NCBI RefSeq assembly: GCF_017942225.1 | Contig: NZ_JAGKSD010000012.1 | Coordinates: 1-64,000 of the forward strand | Length of the DNA stretch: 64,000 nt | Reading direction: 5' to 3' | Origin: Corynebacterium sp. Marseille-P3884 | GTDB taxonomy: Bacteria; Actinomycetota; Actinomycetes; Mycobacteriales; Mycobacteriaceae | In this document: in pieces, positions 368 through 63,813 of the stretch | How the letters are laid out: every line of letters begins with the position of its first letter | How positions within the stretch are numbered: position 1 is the stretch's first letter | Program-made: the position numbers and the translations under genes | Notes under the pieces: model-generated | Database searches by the model: none | The model's input: only the letters and a program-made list of their open reading frames with translations | Told to the model about the DNA's origin: nothing

Positions 368-1561
368 TTGGCACACCACAATTTCTACGACTCGCTCGGA
401 CTCGACCGCGGCAAGGACGCGGAAACGCTGGGCAAACTCATCGACGAGCGCCTCAATTCGCAATCGCTTAACGACGCCACCCGCGACGAACTCCAACTCG
501 CCCGCCTCATCCTCGGCGACTCCGGCCGCCGGAAAACCTACGACACGCGTCTCGACGACCCCACCGCCCCCACCATCGACGTCCCCGCCCTCCGGGAGAT
601 GGCCGCCGCCCCGTCATCGGACTCTTCTCCGACGTCGCAGTTCGGCTCGGCTGCAGCAGGCTCCACTTCTATTGCTAGCTCTGCTTCCAAGGCCGCGGCC
701 GCTTCGAAACGCAACAAGTCGAAGCAGTATTTCCCGGACACGGACCCGGAGGCCGAGGCGGTGCGTCCCGGTCAGACTGAGCCGTCCCAGTCCACGCCCG
801 GCGCGGCCCCGAACTGGGACTCTTTCCCGACGACGACCAACATCCCCCTTTACCAAGGTCCGAACACGGGATCGTTCCCGGGCCAGTACGGTTTCCAAAG
901 CCAGAGCCAGCCGCAGTACGGCTACCCGGGGCAGGCCCAGCAGCCCCAGCAAGTCCAGCAGGGGCAGGTCCAGCCTGTGCAGCAGCAGTCGGTCCAGCAG
1001 CCGACGCAGCCCGCCGAACCCGCGCAGCCAGCGCAGGACACGCAGTCCGAGGTAGCGACGAAGGCCGAGAAGAAGGGCGCATCACCGTGGCTCGTCGGCG
1101 CGATCGTGCTGGTGCTCCTCGCGATCGCAGCGGGCGGCTGGTGGCTGTGGAGCAACAGCGGCGAGGACTGGAACGCCACGGAAGAAAAGATGGCGGATAC
1201 CTTCCCGCAGATCATCTCCGAAAAGAGCGGCCAAAAGGGCTGGCTGGGCATGAAGTGCAAGTCGATGACGCCGAATAGCGGCGAGGACGCGCGTATTCGT
1301 TGCTCGGATAAGAGTCTCGGAGTGAGCATCATCGACTACGGCACGGAGGCGAACCGCGACGCGCAGCTGCCGGAGGGAGACGCGGAGGTCATCGGCAACA
1401 ACGTGTGCTCGGCGCGCTCCTACAAGATGGAGGGAGTGACTCCGCCGGCGTACCGCATCGCACCGGAAAAGGAGGATGCGCAGTACTTGCTCGTCGTCAA
1501 TGGCGGCGAGGCGGAGAGCAAGCGCATGTACTTGAACCTCTGCGAGAAGACGCGTGGCTAG
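368..1561 (+). CDS. J-domain-like, Pro/Gln-rich single-pass membrane protein
   Basis: 397 residues, starting at TTG 368 with AAGGA 8 bases upstream. Residues about 4-58 resemble a J domain: it opens FYDSLGLD and ends in an ARLILGD..RRKTYDTRL helix. The HPD tripeptide needed to stimulate DnaK is absent, so chaperone activity is doubtful. A low-complexity Ser/Ala then Gln/Pro-rich stretch follows (about 60-235), then one transmembrane helix (about 240-262, WLVGAIVLVLLAIAAGGWWLW) and an extracytoplasmic C-terminal domain with several cysteines. The stop overlaps the GTG of the next lipoprotein gene, so the two are probably cotranscribed and may act together at the envelope. Function unknown. Confidence 0.75.
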   Translation: MAHHNFYDSLGLDRGKDAETLGKLIDERLNSQSLNDATRDELQLARLILGDSGRRKTYDTRLDDPTAPTIDVPALREMAAAPSSDSSPTSQFGSAAAGSTSIASSASKAAAASKRNKSKQYFPDTDPEAEAVRPGQTEPSQSTPGAAPNWDSFPTTTNIPLYQGPNTGSFPGQYGFQSQSQPQYGYPGQAQQPQQVQQGQVQPVQQQSVQQPTQPAEPAQPAQDTQSEVATKAEKKGASPWLVGAIVLVLLAIAAGGWWLWSNSGEDWNATEEKMADTFPQIISEKSGQKGWLGMKCKSMTPNSGEDARIRCSDKSLGVSIIDYGTEANRDAQLPEGDAEVIGNNVCSARSYKMEGVTPPAYRIAPEKEDAQYLLVVNGGEAESKRMYLNLCEKTRG

Positions 1562-2147
1562 AAGTCGGCGCACAGCACTTACCGCAGCGGCGGCAGCGAC
1601 GCTGACGCTTGCCGGGTGCTCGCAGAACCTGGAGGAGGCGCAGGGGCCGGTGCTGGAGCATGTGTCGTCGATAAGCGAAAGCCCGGAAAGCGAAACGGCG
1701 ACGGTGACCACGACACGCGCCGCGGACACGCCCGTGGACCCGGCGGATTACGAACGCGCTGGCATGAGCATCTTCACGTACCATCTCGGCGCGCGCACCG
1801 GCACGTGCGCCATCAGCCCGCACGGCGCGACATGCCAAGGCACCACGCCTAACGACGCCCCCACCGTCACCGCCGTCCCCCTGCCCCCGCGCAAGGCCGA
1901 CGCGATCTACGCTGGCACTGACGGCATGCACTACACCGTGTTCGAAGGCGTCGGACCCAGCCAGGGCGACCTGCGCCCCGGCCAATCGATCCGCGTCAAC
2001 GAGAACCACTGCTCCTACCCGGACGACGACACCTTGCGGTGCGCATCCGGCGACGCGCTGAGTTACACCATCGAAAGCGACGGCACGATCACCCCGCACG
2101 GACACCTCGACGACCCGCCTGTGTGGACCCTTCCTGACTATTGGTAA
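1554..2147 (+). CDS. predicted lipoprotein, unknown function
   Basis: 197 residues from a GTG that overlaps the stop of the preceding gene by 8 bases, which implies translational coupling. The N-terminus has two arginines, an Ala/Thr-rich hydrophobic segment and a lipobox LAGC (Cys about residue 22), so it is exported and lipid-anchored. The mature part has paired cysteines in a small domain (GTCAISPHGATCQGT) and later C residues, suggesting disulfides. I do not recognise the family. It carries one copy of the dispersed 11-mer (1666-1676). Confidence 0.75.
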   Translation: MARSRRTALTAAAAATLTLAGCSQNLEEAQGPVLEHVSSISESPESETATVTTTRAADTPVDPADYERAGMSIFTYHLGARTGTCAISPHGATCQGTTPNDAPTVTAVPLPPRKADAIYAGTDGMHYTVFEGVGPSQGDLRPGQSIRVNENHCSYPDDDTLRCASGDALSYTIESDGTITPHGHLDDPPVWTLPDYW

Positions 2148-2172
2148 GCAGAAGCGACTACGGTAGAGCATC

Positions 2173-3711
2173 GTGACTACCCAGGACCTTTCAGAGCAGC
2201 AACAGATCCGCCGCGCAAAGCGCGAAAAACTCCTCGAGCAGGGCAAGGACGCGTACCCGGTGGAGGTGGACCGGACGACGTCGTTAAGCGAATTGCGCGA
2301 GAAATACTCTGTCGTTGAATCTGGCGCTGACGGGGTGACCACCCTGGAAGCTGGCCAGGAGACGCAGGACGAGGTCGCGGTCGCAGGCCGCATCATGTTC
2401 CAGCGCAACACAGGCAAGCTTTGCTTTGCGACGCTTCAAGAAGGCGACGGCACCCAACTCCAGGTCATGCTCTCCCTGGCTGAAGTCGGCGAAGAAGCTC
2501 TCGCTGACTGGAAATCCGACACCGATCTGGGCGATATCGTCTCCGTGCGCGGCCGCGTCATCGCGTCCAAGCGCGGCGAACTGTCCGTCATGGCGAAGTC
2601 CTGGCACATGGCCGCCAAGGCGCTGCGCCCGCTGCCCGTCGCGTTCGCCGACATGAACGAGGAGCAGCGTGTGCGCTACCGCTACACCGACCTCATCATG
2701 CGCGAGGACGCCCGCACAAACGCGCTGACCCGCATCAAGGTGATTGCTGCGCTGCGCAAGTACCTCACGGGCCTGGACTTCGTCGAGGTGGAAACCCCGA
2801 TGCTGCAGACCCTGCACGGTGGTGCTGCCGCACGCCCTTTCCAGACGCACTCCAACGCCCTCGACATCGACCTCTACCTGCGCATCGCCCCTGAGCTCTA
2901 CCTCAAGCGCTGCGTCGTCGGCGGCCTCGAGCGCGTCTTCGAGATCAACCGCAACTTCCGCAACGAAGGCGTCGATTCCTCCCACAGCCCGGAATTCACC
3001 ATGATGGAGACCTACCAAGCATGGGGCACCTACAAAGAAGGCGCCGAAACCATCAAGGGCGCCGTCCAATTCTGCGCCCAGGAAGTCTTCGGGTCCACCA
3101 CCGTCACGCTTGCCGACGGCACCGAATACGACCTCGGCGGCGAATGGAAAGTCCTGGAGATGTACCCGTCCCTCAATGAAGCGCTGGCGCGCAAATTCCC
3201 CGGCCAGCCCGAGGTGACCATCGACTCCACCGTCGACGAACTCAAGGCCATCGCCGCCGAAATCGGCCTCAAGGTACCTGAAAACGCCGGCTGGGGCCAC
3301 GGCAAACTCGTCGAGGAGATCTGGGAAGAGCTCTGCTCCGACCAGCTCTACGAACCGACCTTCGTGATCAACTTCCCCGTCGAGACCTCGCCGCTGACCC
3401 GCGACCACCGTGAAAAGCCGCGCGTCACCGAGAAGTGGGACCTCTACGTCCGCGGCTTCGAGCTGGCCACCGGCTACTCCGAGCTTGTCGACCCGGTCAT
3501 CCAGCGCGAACGCTTCGAAGACCAAGCCCGCCTCGCCGCCGACGGCGACGATGAAGCCATGGTCCTCGACGAAGACTTCCTCGCCGCCATGGAACAGGGC
3601 ATGCCGCCCACAGCCGGCACAGGCATGGGCATCGACCGCCTGCTCATGGCCCTGACCGGCCTTGGCATTCGCGAGACCGTTCTCTTCCCGATGGTGCGCC
3701 CCGAAGCGTAG
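2173..3711 (+). CDS. lysS: lysyl-tRNA synthetase, class II
   Basis: Charges tRNA-Lys with lysine in the cytoplasm. 512 residues, the usual size. An N-terminal OB-fold anticodon-binding domain (about 50-150, VAVAGRIMFQRNTGKLCFATLQ) is followed by the class II catalytic core: motif 2 FEINRNFRNEGVDSSHSPEF and motif 3 GMGIDRLLMALTG near the C-terminus. The GTG start at 2173 is preceded by TACGGT at 2159-2164, 8 bases away, so the mRNA may be leaderless. No Shine-Dalgarno sequence is visible. Confidence 0.97.
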   Translation: MTTQDLSEQQQIRRAKREKLLEQGKDAYPVEVDRTTSLSELREKYSVVESGADGVTTLEAGQETQDEVAVAGRIMFQRNTGKLCFATLQEGDGTQLQVMLSLAEVGEEALADWKSDTDLGDIVSVRGRVIASKRGELSVMAKSWHMAAKALRPLPVAFADMNEEQRVRYRYTDLIMREDARTNALTRIKVIAALRKYLTGLDFVEVETPMLQTLHGGAAARPFQTHSNALDIDLYLRIAPELYLKRCVVGGLERVFEINRNFRNEGVDSSHSPEFTMMETYQAWGTYKEGAETIKGAVQFCAQEVFGSTTVTLADGTEYDLGGEWKVLEMYPSLNEALARKFPGQPEVTIDSTVDELKAIAAEIGLKVPENAGWGHGKLVEEIWEELCSDQLYEPTFVINFPVETSPLTRDHREKPRVTEKWDLYVRGFELATGYSELVDPVIQRERFEDQARLAADGDDEAMVLDEDFLAAMEQGMPPTAGTGMGIDRLLMALTGLGIRETVLFPMVRPEA

Positions 3712-3803
3712 CCGCGCAAAAAACATTCCCGCGACCTCGCATTTTTCCTGGCTGCACGATACAGTCTGACTTGTTATTCGAATAGTCGAAAGGACCCACT
3801 TCG

Positions 3804-63743: not shown

Positions 63744-63758
63744 GCCATTTCGCGCAGC

Positions 63759-63799
63759 AGCCCCCGCTAGGATTCGTTCCTACCGGGGGCTTACGCTTT
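63759..63799. terminator. terminator after pstB
   Basis: 13-bp stem AGCCCCCGCTAGG/CCTACCGGGGGCT (one mismatch) with CTTTT shortly after; lies between convergent pstB and phoU and may serve both. Confidence 0.85.
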
Positions 63800-63802
63800 T
63801 CC

Positions 63803-63813
63803 GCTTATCGACG
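63803..63813 (+). repeat. intergenic copy of the dispersed 11-mer
   Basis: Exact GCTTATCGACG between the pstB terminator and the phoU stop, the only perfect copy outside a gene. Evidence that the word does not depend on coding. Confidence 0.9.

Follow-up and report, generated by a model that had tools for sequence, protein, structure and literature searches.

A genus-wide DNA word in Corynebacterium, with dialects and a C-rich extension: a candidate uptake sequence

The stretch of DNA analysed here, called the window below, comprises positions 1 to 64,000 of contig NZ_JAGKSD010000012.1 from Corynebacterium sp. Marseille-P3884. An asymmetric 11-base word, GCTTATCGACG, and a variant, GCTTAACGACG, recur throughout it from 466 to 63813, and the subject of this report is the distribution of this word in the genus and its possible role in DNA uptake. 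A first-pass annotation, made from the window alone, had counted 29 exact and 6 variant copies; both counts were reproduced, against 0.03 and 0.02 expected from dinucleotide shuffles. A looser core, GCTTNNCGACG, occurs 63 times (1.5 expected), which adds 28 copies to those of GCTTATCGACG and GCTTAACGACG. The exact copies lie on both strands (12 plus, 17 minus). With genes called by a simple custom script rather than a standard annotator, 3 of the 29 fall outside called genes, and the others read Leu-Ile-Asp (11), Val-Asp-Lys (7), Ala-Tyr-Arg (4), Ser-Ile-Ser (3) and Leu-Ser-Thr (1); the earlier tally of 13, 7, 5, 2 and 1 was close but not identical. The sixth frame, which reads TAA, contains no copy, as the annotation had said, and the preference for C in the flanks is also present: C precedes the word in 17 of 29 copies and stands at the second base 3′ of it in 22.

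The copies are listed here together with their state in two relatives, G035 and G161. The last six lines give copies of GCTTGCCGACG, the major word in other species, which are among the 28 further copies of GCTTNNCGACG.

1666..1676, minus strand: exact GCTTATCGACG
5025..5035, plus strand: exact GCTTATCGACG
8460..8470, minus strand: exact GCTTATCGACG
13776..13786, minus strand: exact GCTTATCGACG
14909..14919, minus strand: exact GCTTATCGACG
15844..15854, minus strand: exact GCTTATCGACG; G035 and G161 have GCTTGTCGACG
16248..16258, plus strand: exact GCTTATCGACG, outside called genes; kept in G035
17991..18001, minus strand: exact GCTTATCGACG; kept in G035 and G161
18753..18763, plus strand: exact GCTTATCGACG; kept in G161
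19964..19974, minus strand: exact GCTTATCGACG; kept in G035 and G161
21518..21528, minus strand: exact GCTTATCGACG
21879..21889, plus strand: exact GCTTATCGACG; kept in G161
25224..25234, minus strand: exact GCTTATCGACG; G035 has GCTTGCCGACG
26257..26267, plus strand: exact GCTTATCGACG; kept in G035 and G161
28241..28251, minus strand: exact GCTTATCGACG
30015..30025, minus strand: exact GCTTATCGACG, outside called genes; kept in G035
30916..30926, plus strand: exact GCTTATCGACG; kept in G161
31502..31512, minus strand: exact GCTTATCGACG, in the Leu-Ser-Thr frame
35858..35868, minus strand: exact GCTTATCGACG; kept in G035 and G161
42192..42202, plus strand: exact GCTTATCGACG
42533..42543, minus strand: exact GCTTATCGACG; kept in G035 and G161
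42755..42765, plus strand: exact GCTTATCGACG; kept in G035
46176..46186, plus strand: exact GCTTATCGACG
49103..49113, minus strand: exact GCTTATCGACG; kept in G035 and G161
55826..55836, minus strand: exact GCTTATCGACG
56811..56821, plus strand: exact GCTTATCGACG
57737..57747, minus strand: exact GCTTATCGACG
58482..58492, plus strand: exact GCTTATCGACG
63803..63813, plus strand: exact GCTTATCGACG, outside called genes
466..476, plus strand: variant GCTTAACGACG
2279..2289, minus strand: variant GCTTAACGACG
9101..9111, plus strand: variant GCTTAACGACG
19623..19633, plus strand: variant GCTTAACGACG
35062..35072, plus strand: variant GCTTAACGACG
45746..45756, minus strand: variant GCTTAACGACG
3108..3118, plus strand: variant GCTTGCCGACG
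12284..12294, minus strand: variant GCTTGCCGACG
14752..14762, plus strand: variant GCTTGCCGACG
45072..45082, minus strand: variant GCTTGCCGACG
52271..52281, plus strand: variant GCTTGCCGACG
55340..55350, minus strand: variant GCTTGCCGACG

The genome holding the window (G000; 2.40 Mb in 32 contigs) contains 679 copies of GCTTATCGACG, 329 forward and 350 reverse, or one exact copy per ~3.5 kb; the reversed word occurs 3 times. The drop to expectation in the whole genome that the first-pass annotation had suggested looking for is thus not seen. Single-letter runs aside, the commonest 9-, 10- and 11-mers in ~430 kb of this genome are the word or pieces of it. To obtain a null model that preserves both the proteins and the codon usage, synonymous codons were permuted within each gene. 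The 371 genes of the G000 sample contain 113 copies, compared with a mean of 4.4 and a maximum of 10 in 200 such shuffles, and the 318 genes sampled from a second genome, G148, contain 62 (mean 2.2, maximum 6 after shuffling). The earlier proposal that selection or a copying process acts on the DNA rather than on the proteins is borne out by these shuffles. The 136 copies in the G000 sample comprise 70 in sense and 42 in antisense orientation and 24 that are intergenic or at gene edges; the five stop-free frames and intergenic DNA are all occupied, and the antisense frame that reads TAA is empty. The most used frame is Leu-Ile-Asp, with 55 of the 136 copies, and CTTATCGAC spells 57 of the 91 Leu-Ile-Asp tripeptides in the sample. 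In small samples, Leu-Ile-Asp and Val-Asp-Lys are also commoner in three GCTTATCGACG genomes than in each of ten others. Given this spelling bias and tripeptide excess, the pressure on the word is strong enough to show in proteins.

The word has a fixed core, GCTTNNCGA(C/T)G, and the form common to the three dialect words over 201 genomes is GCTT..CGA.G. In G000, single-letter variants at position 2 and at positions 7-11 number 0-2 each, compared with 136 perfect copies; positions 1 and 4 have up to 6 and position 3 up to 10, and the tolerant centre has up to 26 at position 5 and up to 12 at position 6. The pattern of near misses in G148 is similar, and in genomes with the dialect word GCTTGCCGATG the soft position is 6. 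Of the spacings between GCTT and CGACG, N2 alone is enriched in the G000 sample (310 copies, versus 6-25 at spacings of 0, 1, 3, 4 and 5). The word is not palindromic, as a HIP1-like element or the palindrome of a restriction-modification system would be.

On its 3′ side, the core is followed by an extension of ~30-35 nt that is C-rich and G-poor on the word strand and ends at about +35. Over the first 30 nt in G000, the C fraction is 0.44-0.58 and the G fraction 0.13-0.24, compared with ~0.32 and 0.30 upstream and past +35. Sense, antisense and intergenic copies have this flank alike, whatever the strand of the gene. C exceeds G in these 30 nt in 127 of 136 copies in G000 (the reverse in 5), in 63 of 84 in G148 (the reverse in 19) and in 52 of 53 in GCTTGCCGATG genomes (the reverse in 1), whereas the corresponding splits on the 5′ side are 83:46, 49:23 and 27:23; the contrast is weak in G148 because its 5′ side also leans to C. 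For comparison, we took the first 40 other 11-mers met with at least 15 copies in the G000 sample. The seven with the strongest C-rich 3′ flanks are fragments of the word or variants at its centre, and the next-ranked has a 3′ C excess of only 0.07. Since the C-rich flank marks the central variants GCTTTT-, GCTTGA-, GCTTGT-, GCTTCT- and GCTTGC-CGACG, these are members of the family too. The full element is about 45 bp long, and it is near certain that the word, its dialects and its extension are real. Neither the dialects nor this long extension had been noted in the first-pass annotation.

The word is a genus trait of Corynebacterium. Of 201 genomes of the genus, 92 are dominated by GCTTATCGACG, 47 by GCTTGCCGACG and 11 by GCTTGCCGATG, with 4 more dominated weakly by GCTTGCCGATG; the remaining 47 are wordless, these classes being drawn from hand-compiled counts at thresholds of our own, under which a wordless genome has <20 copies of each of the three words (maxima there 11, 17 and 18). 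When the three words are counted together, at least 100 copies are present in 145 of the 201 genomes and at least 200 in 119. The highest counts in a single genome are 782 for GCTTATCGACG, 603 for GCTTGCCGACG and 478 for GCTTGCCGATG, and GCTTATCGACG is absent from some. Outside the genus, 185 other genomes of the family contain 0-7 copies. Among 28 named genomes, GCTTATCGACG is found 529 times in C. urinipleomorphum, 478 in C. gottingense, 407 in C. tuscaniense, 285 in C. riegelii and 246 in C. oculi. Counts of GCTTATCGACG and GCTTGCCGAYG, respectively, are 97 and 307 in C. tuberculostearicum, 86 and 266 in C. kefirresidentii, 4 and 184 in C. macginleyi and 0 and 13 in C. glyciniphilum.

The C and T spellings of position 10 are mutually exclusive, and GCTTATCGACG and GCTTGCCGACG often co-occur. 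Where GCTTGCCGATG is abundant, in 11 genomes, counts of the other two words do not exceed 45 and 41, and elsewhere GCTTGCCGATG itself stays at 23 copies or fewer. When ten genomes low in GCTTATCGACG were sampled for enriched words, G006 and G143 yielded GCTTGCCGATG and G048 yielded GCTTGCCGACG; in G053, repeats resembling clustered regularly interspaced short palindromic repeats (CRISPR) masked the dialect, which is visible in the genus-wide counts. Relatedness was gauged by PurL identity to the window and by one ComEC comparison, that of G006 (340 copies of GCTTGCCGATG, 30 of GCTTGCCGACG) with G092 (13 and 300), whose ComEC proteins are 77% identical. Thus, the dialect can switch between fairly close relatives. 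Of 12 wordless genomes searched for further dialects of the form GC....CGA.G, 11 had none with >5 copies in 60-102 kb; in the other, G132, GCTCGGCGACG reaches 8 copies.

The two relatives in the feature list differ in their distance from the window. Over 37 kb alignable with G035 (85.6% DNA identity), 9 of 21 words are identical, 10 substituted and 2 gapped, where 24.5% of any aligned 11-mers and 26.1% of those of like composition are identical. The alignment with G161 (77.3% identity) covers 19 words, of which 9 are unchanged, 7 substituted and 3 gapped, and 3 further words lie in unaligned DNA; the controls here are 9.3 and 10.4%, an excess of conservation with a binomial p of 5e-5. Among the 17 substituted copies in both relatives, 9 differ at positions 5-6 only, 2 at position 3 only and 6 more widely. 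In these alignments, copies change mainly through point substitutions at existing sites rather than through insertion, and many have been retained at their sites for a long time.

Mobile DNA was examined through HK97-type capsid genes, found in 10 of 79 word-bearing genomes searched. Within 20 kb of these ten genes there are 30 words of all three spellings, compared with 64.7 at host density. Five of the loci are long prophages, chosen after their gene layout had been seen; their 190 kb contain 4 words, compared with an expectation of 31 from host density, and the other five capsid loci contain the remaining 26. The five prophages have terminase and portal genes, and tape-measure genes in the three tested. 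The rarity of words in prophages makes the word a mark of resident DNA.

The first-pass annotation had called the word oriented. It is asymmetric in itself, yet orientation as a property of the chromosome is not supported, since copies lie on both strands in window and genome alike. On the closed chromosome of G148, twenty 20-kb stretches contain 45 forward and 39 reverse copies (25 and 19 in the first ten stretches, 20 and 20 in the other ten), while GC skew is mainly positive over the first half and mainly negative over the other; no clear replication polarity or arm bias is seen in these stretches of one chromosome. G076 has 19 forward and 21 reverse copies. An apparent all-plus polarity in some single-contig genomes is an artefact of listing. 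The absence of polarity in G148 argues, in that species, against FtsK-orienting polar sequences (KOPS) and classical Chi, the orientation signals that the annotation had considered, and the Chi of RecBCD was rejected because RecC (PF04257) was found in 0 of 80 genomes by a search that did find the E. coli positive control. A DnaA-related site, another of its candidates, was likewise dropped: ~430 kb of G000 contains 6 copies of TTATCCACA and 145 of TTATCGACG, and the intermediates toward the DnaA box (core TTATNCACA) are nearly missing, with 0 of TTATCGACA and 1 of TTATCCACG.

Among the candidates of the annotation, an uptake word fits best. We consider it somewhat better than an even bet, at a probability of roughly 0.55, that GCTTATCGACG and its dialects are DNA uptake sequences analogous to the DNA uptake sequence (DUS) of Neisseria and the uptake signal sequence (USS) of Haemophilus. 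This reading is favoured because density, presence on both strands, lack of polarity and a fixed core with a one-sided extension match DUS and USS, as do the change of dialect with an unchanged core, the absence from some lineages and the restriction to resident DNA and to the genus. It is favoured also because of the comEA/comEC and Tad/Flp loci and a precedent in another actinobacterium, Micrococcus luteus, where transformation reportedly requires Flp/Tad pili and comEA and comEC are present (PMC6370729). By analogy, the word would tag DNA of the cell's own kind, and a predicted surface receptor, perhaps a Tad/Flp pilin or a partner of ComEA, would bind the tag on double-stranded DNA and favour its uptake over that of foreign DNA. 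Tagged DNA would then pass through ComEC and recombine; such biased uptake and recombination could accumulate the tag in the genome, a molecular drive, and a change of receptor would give rise to a new dialect. The larger claim is that Corynebacterium has a self-recognising uptake system with a ~45-bp tag, three or more dialects (of which two exclude each other), gene-exchange barriers written in the genome and a new receptor, the first outside Neisseriaceae and Pasteurellaceae; we give this whole even odds.

Uptake words have so far been described only in two Gram-negative families. In Neisseriaceae, the minor pilin ComP recognises the DUS. Eight dialects that share a CTG core are described there (PMC3630211). 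Like the Corynebacterium word, DUS is non-palindromic, of similar length and high in copy number, with dialects that keep the core; it differs in that the sequences are unrelated and belong to different phyla, inverted pairs are rare in Corynebacterium, and the word here has two tolerated central bases between fixed blocks and a 30-nt C-rich 3′ extension. The USS of Pasteurellaceae likewise has a core and an extended motif, and excerpts of two papers take its length as 31 bp with AT tracts (PMC7811141) and call its receptor unknown until a prediction in 2025 (PMC12616744). Its extension is AT-rich, whereas that of Corynebacterium is C-rich and G-poor; the cores differ, and the hosts here are Gram-positive actinobacteria. 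The core GCTTNNCGA(C/T)G belongs with neither the CTG of DUS nor the GCGG of USS, as these are given in the accessible part of PMC12616744.

The machinery that an uptake word would need is present in the genus. In G000, comEA adjoins comEC, ComEC was found in 200 of 201 genomes, and TadA, the Tad ATPase, scored above the cut-off in 78 of 80. In the 14 loci compared, TadA has pilin-like Tad/Flp genes as neighbours, though not always to the same extent; at the pilus locus of wordless G162, TadA itself was seen only in the survey of 80 genomes. As predictors of the word, ComEC and TadA were rejected, both being nearly universal, wordless species included. Open frames of ComEC range from ~450 to 810 residues among those listed, and long forms are common in wordless species; ComEC length was dropped as a predictor since it is partly linked to the word with exceptions both ways. 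A comparison of ComEA gave no lead, with the motif used detecting ComEA in only 6 of 23 loci.

Several observations weigh against an uptake word. TadA passes the cut-off in wordless genomes (43 of 44) as it does in word-bearing ones (35 of 36), all 8 of the wordless loci examined (loci picked by their TadA match) have neighbouring pilus genes, and wordless G151 has ComEA. No receptor was found, a ComP-like receptor not having been searched for by sequence, and no uptake experiment or natural transformation in Corynebacterium came up among the literature matches listed. In the closer relative, G035, conservation is only mildly above control (9 of 21 against 26%, p about 0.07), the one-sided flank is weaker in G148, and rarity in prophages would fit any tag slowly built up in resident DNA. 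Spacing is no more even than chance in either genome, with coefficients of variation of 1.01 versus 1.04 in G000 and 0.90 versus 0.92 in G148; G000 has fewer gaps <300 bp than a random arrangement would (4% versus 10%), but G148 does not (12% versus 8%). Inverted pairs, a common arrangement of USS, are rare: among 437 neighbouring pairs, 9 are at most 70 nt apart, and 4 of these 9 are inverted. Uptake words are typically evenly spaced and used in terminators, though these traits do not define all of them.

In the strongest rival explanation, the word is a Chi-like recombination signal for AdnAB, the helicase-nuclease of actinobacteria. Having passed the C-rich, unstructured 3′ flank, the enzyme would encounter the word on the unwound strand and change over from degrading DNA to loading RecA. 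The density of about one exact copy per 3.5 kb, the strand asymmetry and the G-poor 3′ flank would suit such a signal, and Chi sequences are, like this word, short, asymmetric, over-represented and species-specific. The word differs from them in having several spellings within one genus and in being longer than the 5-8 bp of known Chi sites; the one chromosome tested (G148) shows no replication orientation, RecC, the Chi reader of RecBCD, is missing from the 80 genomes, and 47 wordless genomes of 201 together with three spellings would be odd for a core repair signal. We regard this explanation as unlikely. A step less probable is a genome-wide binding site for a chromosome-organising or nucleoid protein in most Corynebacterium species. 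The word is spread chromosome-wide, genic and intergenic, and fixed contact bases around a tolerant 2-bp centre would be in keeping with a protein site. Like KOPS, it is over-represented and asymmetric, but the arm orientation that defines KOPS is absent, no clear arm bias is seen in the 20 stretches of G148, and the change of site between relatives and the 30-nt one-sided flank are hard to explain in this way.

We hold as distinctly improbable a self-marking for defence, in which a nuclease, a CRISPR adaptation complex or the like would spare word-bearing DNA and attack the rest. The presence of the word in resident DNA and its rarity in five prophages would accord with this, as would the abundance of CRISPR-like repeats in the G148 and G053 samples; however, spread confined to resident DNA fits other models equally, and we know of no defence system with an 11-bp self word. 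Finally, the idea that the word has no function of its own and reflects codon usage, a peptide motif or the spread of a repeat element can be dismissed as barely credible: Leu-Ile-Asp is indeed the most used frame, but the codon shuffles contradict this account, five frames and intergenic DNA are in use, Leu-Ile-Asp is mostly written CTTATCGAC, the sequences outside the core differ from copy to copy and turnover at orthologous sites proceeds mostly via substitution.

If the word is an uptake word, it would extend a known kind of system to a new phylum, where the code is new. Bacterial mate choice of this form would then have evolved once more, in a third case unrelated to the other two and among Gram-positive bacteria. 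With its many sequenced species and its switches and losses of dialect, the genus would allow drive and selection to be tested against each other. An uptake word would also suggest that Corynebacterium takes up DNA, which would be useful for the genetics of skin commensals. If instead the word is the Chi of AdnAB, it would settle a point that PMC4824097 describes as open for enzymes of this class. Either way, this is a large conserved genome-wide signal that is apparently unreported in the literature searched. Among the matches listed from the open-licence literature, with subscription journals mostly outside its scope, no report of the word or of an uptake word in Corynebacterium was found. 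Among the matches listed, the Corynebacterium paper that contains the word string has it inside a primer (PMC6475665, in excerpt), and a search for spaced motifs across 569 genomes gives, in the portion of PMC5217627 available, only CRISPR-related pairs for three Corynebacterium species.

Some further features of the DNA were observed in passing. In the window, the contig start (1-340) looks like an artefact, with a long T run and a sequence similar to a transposase adaptor (TATAAGAGACAG). A RadA/Sms-like gene at 18745-20175 on the minus strand encodes an AAA_25 domain and a rubredoxin-type zinc domain and contains two exact copies of GCTTATCGACG (at 18753 and 19964); in other bacteria, RadA/Sms is a helper of recombination in transformation. 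In G148, three word copies lie within 60 bp (L034:5127-5186), two of them as an inverted repeat like the terminator pairs of USS. Pieces of CRISPR-like repeats occur in ~75 copies in the G148 sample and 35-40 in that of G053.

Other words are enriched in other genomes. Wordless G132 (L109, L120, L125-L128) has 8 copies of GCTCGGCGACG in 102 kb (1.0 expected), and its 9-mers GTCGCTAAG, AACCGTGCA and ACCCCTTAG, with 9 to 13 copies in the same 102 kb, look like one repeat element. In the wordless, high-GC genomes G127 and G146 (L069-L076), GGCGTCC / GGACGCC is enriched ~3x over an order-3 Markov model as 8-mers, and 80 kb of G146 contain 9 copies of TTGGCCTGCC (0.1 expected). In G062 (L135-L137, L112), pieces of the parS-like TGTTTCACGTGAAACA are found in 7-9 copies in 76 kb.

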